Assembly (NCBI GenBank): GCA_021162425.1
Contig: JAGGYQ010000026.1
Coordinates: forward strand, 1 to 35,125
Direction of reading: 5' to 3'
Origin: Candidatus Aenigmatarchaeota archaeon
GTDB lineage: Archaea; Aenigmatarchaeota; Aenigmatarchaeia; QMZP01; QMZT01
Length of the DNA stretch: 35,125 bases
The translations under genes were made by a program, and so were the position numbers. The notes below the pieces were generated by a model, which had not been told where the DNA came from, made no database searches, and saw only the letters and a list, made by a program, of their open reading frames with translations. Shown piece by piece: positions 16,824 to 24,711 of the stretch (the stretch's first letter is position 1; every line of letters begins with the position of its first letter).

Positions 16824-19508
16824 TTGGGTAACGAAATGGTTTTATTGTTTGGTGTGATAAATCTCTATATGCTCCTTCAGGTCTTGGATGTGGACTATGC
16901 CTTGGTGAACGAGAAACCAATAATCAGAATATTCGGCAGGACCGAAGCAGGAGAAACAGTATGCGTATTCTACGAGAATTTCATGCCTTACTTCTATGTC
17001 ATGGGGGACAACGTAGAAGATACTCTCAAAAACGAAGGAAATGTCCTTGCTGTTGAAAAAGTAAAACGCTTCATGCCAATTGGTTATCAAACAAAGATGA
17101 CCGAGCTTTATAGAATAACGCTTAAAAACCCTGCCCGCACGCCAGAGTTGAGGGACCGCTTGATACTGAAAGGGTTCAAGGTTTTTGAGGCAGATATCCC
17201 GTTTAAATACAGGTTCATGGCTGACCATGATGTCGGGGGTATGGGCTGGATTGACGTCGAAGTGCTGAAAAGCGTGAACACAAACACGGTAAAAACCAAA
17301 CTCAAAGTCCATGCAAAAAACATTAAAAACATCAATAAAGACGAAATGTGCAAACTGAAATACCTTGCAGTGGATATTGAGTGTATACCGAGAAAGGGCA
17401 TCGGCATACCTGATAGCAAGAGCGACCCCATAATAATGATATCGCTCGCCTTCAGCGAACCATATAAAGGCAAAGACTCTATTGTTCTTGCGACGAGGCC
17501 GGACAATGATGTTATGTATTTTGAACAAGAAAAGGAAATGCTTGAAAAATTCATAGACATTGTGACAGACTATGACCCGGATATAATCACCGGCTACAAC
17601 GTGAACAATTTCGACATGCCTTATATAATAGACAGGCTTCAGGAGAACGGTATACCTCCGCTTTTCGGGAGGTGCAACAAAGCTGTGATGAAGAAGCAAT
17701 TGATGGGCAGGTTCAAAATCAACATAACAGGAAGGGCAATAATCGATACATATGAAATAATAAAAAGGGACTTCTCTTTCAAGCGATATGACCTAAACAC
17801 CGTATCCGAAGGGCTTCTGAACGAACAAAAGGAACCCGTCAAAAAATCGCAGATTGCAAAATACTGGAACGGGACACAAAACGAATATAAAATGCTCATC
17901 AAATACTCGATAAAAGACGCTGTTCTCGCGTTGAAACTTCTGCTGGAAAAAAATCTCCTTGACAAATATATCGGATTATCCAAGGTATCTGGTCTGCTGC
18001 TTCAGGACGTGCTTGATTCGGGCGAGACTTCGAGAATAGAGTTTCTCTTGCTAAAAGAATTCAACAGACAGGGTTTCATCCTGCCGTGCAAACCCACCCA
18101 GGTCGAAGTGAAAAAAAGGGAGAAAGAGAAGGTCTTGGAAGGGGGTTTTGTTGTTGAGCCAGAAAAGGGTCTCCACAAATCTGTAATTGTTCTCGACTTC
18201 AAATCAATGTACCCATCGCTTATACGGACTTACAACATATGCCCAACAACTCTTATTGTTGACGGCGGCGAAACCAAACACATCGTGTCACCCTCGGGCG
18301 CGAAATTCGTTTCGGAAAATGTGAGAAAAGGTATAATACCGCGAATATTAGAAAAACTCATGGCAGAGCGACAAAAAGTCAAGAAACAGATGAAAACCGA
18401 AAAAAATATAGAAAAAGTAAGGGAGCTGTCCGCAAAGCAGCTCGCGCTCAAAATAATGTCAAATGCATTTTATGGTTATTTCGGTTACACACGAGCAAAG
18501 GTATACTCTGTTGACATAGCCAACAGCATAACCTCGTTTGGCAGGGAAACCATTAAAAAAACTAAGAAATATATAGAGAGCAAATTCGGTTATAAAGTCG
18601 TTTATGGCGACACAGACTCTGTAATGGTGAAAATCGGCAAGAACGATATTGAAGATATAAGAAAAATTGGGATTGAAATATCAAAGGACGTCACAAATAT
18701 TCTGCCCGGTGTCATGGAACTGGAATTCGAAAAAATCTTTATGAGGTTTCTTCCGCTGACAAAAAAGAGATACGCTGCATGGTCTTTTGAATGGGATGGG
18801 GAAAAGTGGGTCGAAAAAATAGAGACCAAGGGAATCGAGACTGTTAGAAGGGACTGGTGCGATTTGACATCCGAGACCATTGAACAAATCTTGAACATTA
18901 TCCTCAGACGTGATGACATCAAAGCAGCGGTTGAATACTTCAAAAAAGTTGCAAACGAAGTTGCAAAAAACAAAATTCCTATAGAGAAACTCGTAATAAC
19001 AAAAACCATGACAAAAAGCGCTGATGGCTACGCCGGTGTTCAACCACATGCCGAACTTGTGAAAAAAATAAAAAAAAGGAACCCAGCCGAAGCACCGGGT
19101 ATAGGCGATAGGATCGGTTATGTCATAATAAAAGGACTAGAAATGATTTCCAAGCGGGCAGAGGACCCATCGTATGTATTGGAAAAGGGACTTGAGATTG
19201 ACTCAAAATATTACATAGAAAACCAATTGCTCCCCCCTCTGGAGAGAATATTCAACGCACTTGGTATATCCAAGAACGAGTTATTGGGCAAGGGAAAACA
19301 AATAAATCTCATTGGCGCGATAGCCAATGGTCAATCAAACAATGTTAACATTGTCGATGAAATATCATCAGATGAATTTACAGGGTTTGTGTGTCTGAAA
19401 TGCCACAAGACGTATGATATTCCACCATTATCCGGTTCGTGTGTCTGTGGAAATGAGCTTCTCTTCTCTTCACCAAAAGGTCCTGCAAAGAAGATAAAGT
19501 TTGCGTAA
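16824..19508 (+). CDS. polB: Family B DNA polymerase
   Basis: Exo motifs AVDIECIP, YNVNNFDMPYI, YSIKDAVLAL; Pol motifs VLDFKSMYPSLI, LKIMSNAFYGYFGY, VVYGDTDSVMV; C-terminal CLKCHKTYDIPPLSGSCVCG. True start may be 16836 or 16869. Confidence 0.96.
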   Translation: MGNEMVLLFGVINLYMLLQVLDVDYALVNEKPIIRIFGRTEAGETVCVFYENFMPYFYVMGDNVEDTLKNEGNVLAVEKVKRFMPIGYQTKMTELYRITLKNPARTPELRDRLILKGFKVFEADIPFKYRFMADHDVGGMGWIDVEVLKSVNTNTVKTKLKVHAKNIKNINKDEMCKLKYLAVDIECIPRKGIGIPDSKSDPIIMISLAFSEPYKGKDSIVLATRPDNDVMYFEQEKEMLEKFIDIVTDYDPDIITGYNVNNFDMPYIIDRLQENGIPPLFGRCNKAVMKKQLMGRFKINITGRAIIDTYEIIKRDFSFKRYDLNTVSEGLLNEQKEPVKKSQIAKYWNGTQNEYKMLIKYSIKDAVLALKLLLEKNLLDKYIGLSKVSGLLLQDVLDSGETSRIEFLLLKEFNRQGFILPCKPTQVEVKKREKEKVLEGGFVVEPEKGLHKSVIVLDFKSMYPSLIRTYNICPTTLIVDGGETKHIVSPSGAKFVSENVRKGIIPRILEKLMAERQKVKKQMKTEKNIEKVRELSAKQLALKIMSNAFYGYFGYTRAKVYSVDIANSITSFGRETIKKTKKYIESKFGYKVVYGDTDSVMVKIGKNDIEDIRKIGIEISKDVTNILPGVMELEFEKIFMRFLPLTKKRYAAWSFEWDGEKWVEKIETKGIETVRRDWCDLTSETIEQILNIILRRDDIKAAVEYFKKVANEVAKNKIPIEKLVITKTMTKSADGYAGVQPHAELVKKIKKRNPAEAPGIGDRIGYVIIKGLEMISKRAEDPSYVLEKGLEIDSKYYIENQLLPPLERIFNALGISKNELLGKGKQINLIGAIANGQSNNVNIVDEISSDEFTGFVCLKCHKTYDIPPLSGSCVCGNELLFSSPKGPAKKIKFA

Positions 19509-19524
19509 GTTCACATACTTTTAC

Positions 19525-19694
19525 ACACCCCTTCATTTCATGTGGAAATACGTGAATTTCGAACCTGCACCCGCGAAAAAAGTAATCTGCGATTAACGTG
19601 AAATAAACGTGAACCATCATTTCCTGTGGAAAAATAAAGGCTTAACATAATCTACGTATGCTTGTTTTTGTCTTCTCCATGTGAAATAATGGGG
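19525..19694. other. Cluster of three ORB-like origin recognition elements (candidate origin part 1)
   Basis: Minus strand 19525-19549 TTTCCACATGAAATGAAGGGGTGTG; plus strand 19620-19640 TTTCCTGTGGAAAAATAAAGG; plus strand 19674-19694 TCTCCATGTGAAATAATGGGG. Same dyad and G-string register, in a convergent gene gap where promoters are not expected. Confidence 0.6.
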
Positions 19695-19695
19695 T

Positions 19696-20904
19696 TCATA
19701 TGAACATATAGCCAGACAAACCGGAGAAATAAACAATCGTAGGTATAAGCAGGAACCCCATCATATACGCGCGCCTGACGCCAAATGATATTGTCACCAA
19801 TCCTATGGACAAGCCGCATATCATCGTAATCAGACCCACGATCCCTGTCTGCAAAGTTATCGTTAACACAAGGAATATCATCACCATAAATGTGAGTCTT
19901 GAATAATTTATATTCGCCATTCTAATCGAGATTCGTTTCGCTATGTACAGGGTAGCGGCAGCCGAAAGTAGCGATGCTGCAATCGAAGATATTATAACAA
20001 GAAACATTAATCGCATACTAATCTCCCCAAACACCTGAGATATAAACCATGCAGCACCAGAACGTGTCTTACCGATTAAATAAAGACACATAAATGTAAA
20101 GAAAATATTTGATGTGTTTATACCGCCAAGGGCTATCATGAACTCTTTTATATCCGCCCTTAATATTTGGGAAGCTATAACACCTGCCTGCGATGAACCT
20201 ATTCCTGGCAGCAATGCAGAAAATACCCCAGCCAGCCATCCCGCTACACTCCCTTTAAACCAGTCACATTTGATATTCACATTATGTGTTTGTTTTGGTA
20301 TGTTTACACGTGAATACATACTAACAACAAGCGCGCTCATACCAAACATTCCCGTAAGCGAAGGGAAGAGTAATGTTTGAGAATTTGTGTTCAAAGCAAT
20401 TATCCCAAACAAGCCTGACATCACCAACACGAGCAATGCCTTCTTTCTTTTGCCCTTCTCGAAAAGCAACATCCATATAATAACTGCAATCAAAACAATG
20501 TGGATTATCGGCCTGATCGCACCATATACAATAGGCAGTATGAAGAATAAAAACGGCAAGCCTGTCACAACCAGTACCATACTACCAAGTCCTCCGACTA
20601 CTGTTAAAAAAACTGCCTCGTAACCCCTTCCATTCAAAAGCATTCTGTGCCCTGGCAAAATTGAGAGTATAGAATCCTCTTCTGGTGCGCCGAACAAAAT
20701 GGACGGGATAAAATCAACAAAAGTGTTCGCAACTGCCAAAGAAACTGCAAAGACAAGCAACGCTTCATTTCCCAATCCTTGAAAAAGAAATACACTCATC
20801 GCAACAAGGGTAAACACAGTATTCGGATGAAAGCCCGGGATAAGTCCTGTCGCTATCCCTACCAACACGCCCGATAAAAGACAGAGCAACAATACCGGAA
20901 ACAT
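19696..20904 (-). CDS. TctA-like (COG1784-type) membrane permease
   Basis: Multi-TM, GIATGLIPGFHPN repeated as GVFSALLPGIGSSQAG, SILFGAPEEDSILSILPGHRML. Confidence 0.8.
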   Translation of the reverse strand: MFPVLLLCLLSGVLVGIATGLIPGFHPNTVFTLVAMSVFLFQGLGNEALLVFAVSLAVANTFVDFIPSILFGAPEEDSILSILPGHRMLLNGRGYEAVFLTVVGGLGSMVLVVTGLPFLFFILPIVYGAIRPIIHIVLIAVIIWMLLFEKGKRKKALLVLVMSGLFGIIALNTNSQTLLFPSLTGMFGMSALVVSMYSRVNIPKQTHNVNIKCDWFKGSVAGWLAGVFSALLPGIGSSQAGVIASQILRADIKEFMIALGGINTSNIFFTFMCLYLIGKTRSGAAWFISQVFGEISMRLMFLVIISSIAASLLSAAATLYIAKRISIRMANINYSRLTFMVMIFLVLTITLQTGIVGLITMICGLSIGLVTISFGVRRAYMMGFLLIPTIVYFSGLSGYMFI

Positions 20905-22394: not shown

Positions 22395-23267
22395 TTAAAT
22401 TTTCTCGAGTAACACTTCTCCTTTCTTTGTTTTGTATATTGCATGCGTTCCTGGTGCTGTTGATATCACAACAACCCCTTTGTAATTTGCTGACCAGTTA
22501 TCCGTTCGGTTGAAAAGCCATATAAAATTAGGTATCTCCTTTATCAATGTTGTTTTCATATCGTTAATTTTAATTGTCCTTTTCTTTAGGAAATTTATGA
22601 CCTTCTCTTTGTCTGCGTTTGTTTTCAGCGCAATTGCCTTTATTTCTTCGTCACCCGCCCTTACTAACAGTTCTGCGAGGTCTGCTGTTATTTTTTTGCG
22701 GATATCTTGTATTGAAATTTCTGGCTCTTTCTTGTCCAATAGATGAATAGTAATGTCGCCGGTGCGTCTACCAACCTCTGTTAATGGTATGTCTGGCCAT
22801 ATTATTTTTTTCGCAAAAAAAATTCCATCTCGCGTGAAACCTGAGACCCCTAATACATCCCCTTTTTCTATATCATCGTCATTTGTGATGACAGGCACGC
22901 TTCCTGTCACATCCTCTATAACAAATCCGTTGTTTGTGATTTCGGCGACTCTTCCTATTATTGTTGATGATGGGAGTTTTTTTGCCTTGTCTATGGAGAC
23001 TGCGTTGATTTTTTTTAGTATGATTTCTTTAAGGGTGTTGTAGTTGTTTATTGTTTCCTCTATGAATTCATTTACATCCATTGTCTCTCTCTGCTTGTTG
23101 TTGACTACTATCTCGATTTTCTTTGGCATTTGTTTTTTTGTTTTTTTGTTAAGATGTTTGCTTAGAAATTCCATGTAGTTTTGTTCGTTTATGGTTTCGA
23201 GCTCTTCGGGGGAAAGAAGTATGTTGTGTTTCAAAAACTCCATTACTATACTCTTTTTGTCGACCAT
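22395..23267 (-). CDS. DNA polymerase D small-subunit (DP1)-like OB-fold protein lacking a recognisable phosphoesterase domain
   Basis: IIGRVAEITNNGFVIEDVTGSVPVITNDDDIEKGDVLGVSGFTRDGIFFAKKIIWPDIPL resembles the DP1 OB region; none of the DP1 metal-binding motifs seen in 290 aa. Confidence 0.6.
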   Translation of the reverse strand: MVDKKSIVMEFLKHNILLSPEELETINEQNYMEFLSKHLNKKTKKQMPKKIEIVVNNKQRETMDVNEFIEETINNYNTLKEIILKKINAVSIDKAKKLPSSTIIGRVAEITNNGFVIEDVTGSVPVITNDDDIEKGDVLGVSGFTRDGIFFAKKIIWPDIPLTEVGRRTGDITIHLLDKKEPEISIQDIRKKITADLAELLVRAGDEEIKAIALKTNADKEKVINFLKKRTIKINDMKTTLIKEIPNFIWLFNRTDNWSANYKGVVVISTAPGTHAIYKTKKGEVLLEKI

Positions 23268-23288: not shown

Positions 23289-24506
23289 TTAAAAAAACCA
23301 TGTGCTGAAAATGTTTTTGATTCTCTCCTTCACGTCCTTCGAAAGGTCAAGGTTTATTTCTCTTGTTCTTCCATATCTCCCTTTTGATATGACCTTGGCG
23401 TTAACCACACCGAACATATCAAGTTCTGATATGAGGTCTGAAACCCTTCGTTGCGTTAATGGTTTGAGATTATTTTTCTTACACAATCTTATATAGAAAT
23501 CGTACACGTCTCCTGTCTGTATATTTCTGTGTCCATCCTCTGCCAACATTAATATGGAGAGAAAGACACATTGAGATTGTTTCGGTTGGTTTTTTATTAT
23601 TTCGATTGTCTTGTCTGTGTCGAGCTTTTTCTCTGCCATATCAACATGTTCTTCGAGGACTTTATTGCTCCCCATTCTCTCTGCTATCTCACCTGACACC
23701 CTCAACAAATCCAGCGCTTTCCTTGCGTCACCGTGCTCCTGTGCAGCGAGCGCAGCACATTTGGCAACAACTGACTGCGTTACAGCACCAGGGAAAAAAG
23801 CCATTGCCACTCGCTCTGATAATATGTCTCGGAGCTCTGCTGCATTGTATGGCGGGAAAATCATCTCCTCTTCTGACAATGATGACTTGACACGTGGATC
23901 CAGTGTGTTTACGAATGATATGTTGTTTGAGATTCCTATCAATGTAAGTTTTGTTTCTTTTAGTTCTTGGTTTATTCTTGTTAGGTTGTACAGCACGCTG
24001 TCGCCTATCTTCTGGACAAGTGCGTCTATCTCATCCAAAACCAAGACTAAGTTGTATGCGTTTTCATTTAATATGTGGAAGAATTTTTTGTATACTTGCT
24101 CTGTCGGAAGACCTGTATATGGAACATCGACCCCAAAAGCTGAAATTATCTGTGAAACCATTCTGTATTCTGTATCGGCTACCCTGCTCATTTTACAGTT
24201 GATGTATATTGTTTTTATTTTGTTGTTTTTGTTTCTTTTTGCCACGTTTAACAATGTGTTGAGTGTGTGTTTTATACATAGTGTTTTTCCTGTTCCGGGT
24301 TTCCCATATATAAATATATTAGATGGCTTCTCGTCTCGCAAAATCGGCGCCAATATAAGGCCTAATTGTTTTATTTGATGTTCTCTGTGTGGTATGTTTT
24401 CGGGTGTGAATTGGATTGATAATATATCCTTGTTTTTGAATATTGTCTTCTTATTAATATAATTCTCAAAAATTTCATTTAAGGATATTTGGGTCATAAT
24501 TTCCAT
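23289..24506 (-). CDS. cdc6: Orc1/Cdc6 replication initiator
   Basis: AAA+ FIYGKPGTGKT, LVLVLDEIDALVQ, HGDARKALDLLRVSGEIAE, C-terminal winged helix; start may be the second Met at 24497 (MTQISLNEIF). Confidence 0.95.
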   Translation of the reverse strand: MEIMTQISLNEIFENYINKKTIFKNKDILSIQFTPENIPHREHQIKQLGLILAPILRDEKPSNIFIYGKPGTGKTLCIKHTLNTLLNVAKRNKNNKIKTIYINCKMSRVADTEYRMVSQIISAFGVDVPYTGLPTEQVYKKFFHILNENAYNLVLVLDEIDALVQKIGDSVLYNLTRINQELKETKLTLIGISNNISFVNTLDPRVKSSLSEEEMIFPPYNAAELRDILSERVAMAFFPGAVTQSVVAKCAALAAQEHGDARKALDLLRVSGEIAERMGSNKVLEEHVDMAEKKLDTDKTIEIIKNQPKQSQCVFLSILMLAEDGHRNIQTGDVYDFYIRLCKKNNLKPLTQRRVSDLISELDMFGVVNAKVISKGRYGRTREINLDLSKDVKERIKNIFSTWFF

Positions 24507-24561
24507 ATGAAATAAAGGTTTAAATTCTTAACACCCTCACCCTTCTATTTCGTTTGGAATG

Positions 24562-24588
24562 ATTTCTTATGGAACTTCCATAAGAAAT
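24562..24588. repeat. Perfect 13-bp inverted repeat with 1-nt spacer (paired mini-ORB)
   Basis: ATTTCTTATGGAA C TTCCATAAGAAAT; arms are exact reverse complements. Confidence 0.9.
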
Positions 24589-24593
24589 TTTAT

Positions 24594-24612
24594 ATTATAA
24601 CAGTGTTATAAT
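24594..24612. repeat. AT-rich inverted repeat (8-bp arms, 3-nt spacer) in the putative unwinding region
   Basis: ATTATAAC AGT GTTATAAT. Confidence 0.85.
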
Positions 24613-24711
24613 AATTATGATAGTTCAAAAAGACGAATTTTATATTTCCATAGGAAATTAAGGTCTGTGTGTTAAATCATTTGAATCTACACCCAAAAAT
24701 CAAACCACATG

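Follow-up and report, generated by a model that had tools for sequence, protein, structure and literature searches.

A predicted distal initiator-binding module 3' of polB in a candidate two-part replication origin of Candidatus Aenigmatarchaeota

The convergent gap between polB and a TctA-family membrane protein gene of a Candidatus Aenigmatarchaeota archaeon contains three predicted Orc1/Cdc6 binding sites (ORBs), and we infer that the neighbouring Orc1 binds them. We favor, with a probability of roughly 60%, the reading that this cluster is the distal initiator-binding module of a two-part oriC1-type region, where it would modulate the origin near cdc6 through either titration or bridging. 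The cluster probably helps control the timing with which DNA copying starts. The window, the whole stretch of 35,125 nucleotides that was analysed, is a complete contig (C65); the genome it comes from has 954 kb in 75 contigs and an estimated completeness of 92.6%. An Rfam scan of the window returned no family at its threshold. The relevant parts of the window are as follows.

16824-19508, plus strand: polB, with its stop at 19508 and a C-terminal Cys motif; assigned to the B6-aenigma type from its features and the literature
19509-19695: gap between the convergent polB and TctA genes, with the ORB cluster; 187 bp, GC 0.37, lowest 50-nt GC 0.30
19526-19548, minus strand: ORB g1, TTTCCACATGAAATGAAGGGGTG; 33.9 bits, top match of the 954-kb genome, G-string facing polB
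19610-19632, minus strand: ORB g2, TTTCCACAGGAAATGATGGTTCA; 22.8 bits, core kept in the five aligned family members
19674-19696, plus strand: ORB g3, TCTCCATGTGAAATAATGGGGTT; 27.8 bits, G-string facing TctA, its end coinciding with the TctA stop codon
19696-20904, minus strand: TctA-family membrane protein gene, convergent with polB, stop at 19696
22395-23267, minus strand: DP1-like gene, its likeness to DP1 confined to the OB region (E 0.04)
23289-24506, minus strand: cdc6/orc1 initiator gene; top PDB match 2qby_A, S. solfataricus Cdc6-1 (E 1e-113)
24500-24522, plus strand: ORB c1; 25.1 bits, overlying the cdc6 start codon
24538-24560, minus strand: ORB c2; 21.0 bits, cdc6-side arm of an inverted pair
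24561-24644: candidate AT-rich unwinding element amid the inverted ORBs; the 50-nt window from 24580 has 14% GC
24645-24667, plus strand: ORB c3; 23.2 bits, far arm of the inverted pair

ORBs were scored with a position weight matrix (PWM) trained on 39 polB-gap sites from relatives, with the window left out. Exactly six sites in the window exceeded 8 bits, three in the polB/TctA gap and three upstream of cdc6. A sequence-only covariance model agreed, as 5 of its top 6 window matches were the ORBs called by the PWM. Genome-wide, the only matches to TTCCANNTGAAANNNNGGGG with zero or one mismatch both lie inside the gap and are its outer sites. In each gap site a G-string follows a dyad core, the layout known from other archaeal origins (consensus TTCCANNKGAAAYRARGGGGT). 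Helical phasing of the ORBs was considered and rejected, as spacings of ~28-31, 57-61 and 101-103 bp fit whole turns too poorly.

A first-pass annotation of this DNA had described three dyads in the gap, and all are present. It had assigned them to the minus, plus and plus strands. The outer two assignments hold, but the middle site is on the minus strand. The PWM gives it 22.8 bits there and 1.5 bits on the opposite strand, and the order is therefore minus, minus, plus. The annotation's view that these sites are of the same type as those near cdc6 is borne out by the gap-trained PWM, which recovers the three cdc6-upstream sites of the window. The gap motif also occurs upstream of cdc6 in other archaea (loci L025, L026, L028 and L029). 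Because the gap-trained motif finds cdc6-upstream ORBs outside the phylum, among them those of Archaeoglobaceae, Thermoplasmatales and Nanosalinarum loci, it can be tied to the ORB family already described. The Cdc6 encoded nearby belongs to the Orc1-1 type of initiators, and its gene is 3.6 kb from the gap ORBs.

The convergent polB/TctA gap is syntenic across most of the order. Thirty polB loci were read, two of which (G008 and G033) stop at a contig edge, leaving 28 assessable loci by hand count. An ORB of at least 16 bits was present 3' of polB in 23/28 (also a hand count). Three more genomes (G017, G031 and G039) have lost the close adjacency to polB and retain the ORB cluster beside or near TctA. 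At the same PWM cutoff no ORB was found in the polB gap of G005, nor downstream of polB in G027, where polB is located elsewhere. When the gaps are aligned, the conserved blocks consist of the ORBs and the sequence directly beside them, while the spacers have diverged. Conservation of both the gap and its dyads, the comparative half of the test that the first-pass annotation had proposed for its interpretation, was thus observed, and its opinion that the sites are unlikely to be promoter operators still stands. Its overall reading, a bipartite origin or an initiator titration site, is partly supported.

The ORB search was extended to 151 genomes of the class, most relatives being fragmented MAGs, with counts taken from the best 150 matches listed. 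Of these 150 matches, 80 were upstream of cdc6; another 49, from 33 genomes, were within 700 bp of the polB 3' end. The training set comes from the order, so the matrix may underrate sites in distant families. ORBs 3' of polB were also found in families f8, f13, f15, f22, f23 and f27, and the loci read from these families have the order cdc6, DP1-like gene, then polB directly. The G-string points away from polB in 39/49 polB-3' ORBs (nominal p 4e-5, which overstates the evidence because the sequences are related). The arrangement of ORBs is fixed within a family, being tandem and 101-102 bp apart in f5 and minus/minus/plus in f1. PolB-gap ORBs are tandem in most relatives, and the outward G-strings reported by the first-pass annotation are accordingly a property of the outermost gap sites in the window rather than a general rule. 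In one single-contig relative (G034), strong ORB-like sites were also seen at C1:517140-517162 and 531473-531495, far from both cdc6 and polB.

The two clusters differ in base composition. Upstream of cdc6 the DNA between ORBs is AT-rich, with a mean GC of 0.29 and a lowest 50-nt value of 0.13. In the polB gap it is not (mean 0.41, lowest 50 nt 0.31). Within the window the lowest 50-nt GC is 0.30 in the gap vs 0.14 upstream of cdc6. The cdc6-upstream cluster is built like a canonical oriC1, with inverted ORBs and outward G-strings around AT-rich DNA adjoining cdc6, and this module is commoner across relatives than the gap module. GC skew in the single-contig relatives G020 and G034 gave no usable origin signal.

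Short, partly palindromic motifs are easily spotted by eye, so a chance resemblance within an AT-leaning intergenic stretch had to be considered. No site of at least 20 bits appeared in 10 Mb of simulated second-order Markov sequence, the best matches of the genome are in the gap, and the sites are conserved across families though the spacer DNA has diverged. Simulation and conservation together rule this explanation out for practical purposes. Binding by a different conserved protein, for instance the HTH regulator encoded close by, a terminator protein or a fork-pausing factor, is very unlikely. The window has an adjacent gene for an HTH_3 protein, with synteny in close relatives, but the motif is also present at L012 and in G020, with no HTH homologue detected in their vicinity. 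The motif is moreover that of the cdc6-upstream ORBs, outside the phylum too, and fits the ORB architecture in the literature, a dyad with a G-string.

A more serious competitor, though still a doubtful one, is that the gap cluster is itself a working (or second) origin and that the ORBs upstream of cdc6 mainly autoregulate cdc6. With a matrix trained on cdc6-upstream sites, gap sites score the same or slightly higher (mean 24.9 bits vs 24.4 bits), a sequence score for sites that were picked with the gap-trained motif. The outer gap ORBs of the window are inverted with their G-strings outward, like a canonical oriC1. Another point in favor of a gap origin comes from G020, whose 742-kb contig has a single strong ORB pair, the one in the gap (33 bits per site). 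Against it, a GC scan of the gap, in the window and in relatives, found no AT-rich unwinding-type tract, the majority of gap clusters are tandem rather than inverted, and the full canonical anatomy and the wider spread belong to the cdc6-upstream module.

We therefore return to the reading of the gap cluster as a distal module. Under it, the cdc6-upstream module would be the most likely place of melting and MCM loading. Orc1 monomers would occupy the DUE-less polB-gap module, ~5 kb off across cdc6, and gap-bound Orc1 would modulate the cdc6-proximal origin, either because initiator is held there (titration) or through a bridge to the proximal complex. We infer this regulatory effect. The fixed spacing and orientation of the sites suit a structured complex better than simple titration, which keeps bridging in play. 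Two observations go against an auxiliary role. Some relatives, G005 for example, have no gap ORB, and G020, assembled as one contig, has no cdc6-upstream ORBs and retains the gap pair, which would not be expected of a purely auxiliary site. In G020 the gap module may be able to act alone, or there may be a problem with the assembly.

A LAGLIDADG-type gene was observed 3' of polB in 14 relatives (G002, G005, G011, G021, G060, G064-G067 and G126-G130). It separates polB from TctA or, in family f26, from the NAC gene. The polB/TctA gap of the window has no LAGLIDADG gene. The loci are listed below.

L181:1501-2115: LAGLIDADG-type gene
L182:1501-2094: LAGLIDADG-type gene
L183:1501-2178: LAGLIDADG-type gene
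L180:1501-2142: LAGLIDADG-type gene
L184 and L186-L194: ten more LAGLIDADG loci

The catalytic acids of both LAGLIDADG motifs are missing in 14/14 polB-linked members, as judged by eye from an alignment, which rules out an active homing endonuclease in these gaps. At least one catalytic acid is retained in 4/5 unlinked comparators (L197, L200, L202 and L203), and L196 has none. The structure predicted for the G005 protein has a mean pLDDT of 92, and its fold matches those of I-Tsp061I, a homing endonuclease, and WhiA, a transcription factor. Perfect direct repeats of 33-47 bp, overlapping ORB-like sequence, flank or overlap the gene ends in G002, G005, G011 and G021. ORBs in gaps with a LAGLIDADG gene are often weak or missing. 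Strong ORBs (at least 20 bits) were present in 3/14 such gaps vs 19/20 LAGLIDADG-free polB gaps of the order by hand count (Fisher p 1e-5, a value that ignores relatedness and the order-trained motif). An extended version of the two-part model can be put forward, which we consider unlikely. In it, a DUE-less module 3' of polB, the replacement replicase gene, and the module near cdc6 would cooperate as a true two-part origin. In several lineages, a catalytically dead LAGLIDADG protein whose gene lies within the gap module would have assumed some of the initiator's tasks at that module.

The gap module adjoins polB, a replicase gene. According to Kazlauskas et al. 2020 (PMC7544198), most Aenigmarchaeota have had their DP2 replaced by a zinc-binding PolB (B6), and DP1 is inactive; the polymerase swap was therefore already known. 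Our DP1-like and DP2 findings agree with that report. No phosphodiesterase domain was found in the DP1-like gene at 22395-23267, and neither DP2 nor a Pfam-type DP1 was found in the genome containing the window. Across the class DP2 was present in 10/151 genomes, all of family f32, and 0/10 of these had a match to the polB of the window at the threshold used.

Judging from the titles and abstracts of the papers found, a replication origin of Ca. Aenigmatarchaeota has apparently not been described. The present analysis locates a strong candidate origin with two conserved modules predicted to bind the initiator, and the lineage is one whose replicative polymerase has reportedly been exchanged (PMC7544198). 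Origin control in DPANN archaea becomes testable.

In bipartite bacterial origins, clusters of initiator boxes are found around the initiator gene. The two ORB clusters around cdc6 resemble such a layout, for example that of Helicobacter pylori oriC (PMC8235120). Unlike that origin, the candidate described here uses archaeal Orc1 and ORBs and has wider spacing, and bridging between its clusters is our proposal. Archaeal oriC1 regions, such as the ORB3-DUE-ORB2 arrangement of Sulfolobus (PMC12141716) and haloarchaeal oriC1 (PMC4010727), share with it the ORB sequence type and the inverted cdc6-upstream ORBs around AT-rich DNA adjoining an Orc1-1 type gene. They differ from it in that an additional conserved ORB module occupies the polB/TctA gap here, has no AT-rich DNA and is usually tandem. 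In Haloarcula hispanica, oriC2D comprises 11 ORBs directly after cdc6E, has no origin activity and restrains oriC2 (PMC3936714). Like oriC2D, the gap module lies downstream of the initiator gene as a second ORB cluster, and the presumed origin proper is on the upstream side. It has one to four strong ORBs rather than 11, and lies several kb away past other genes, at the polB 3' end. Negative control has been demonstrated for oriC2D, whereas the function of the gap module is predicted from sequence. Of the systems tested by experiment, oriC2D is the closest precedent for the gap module.
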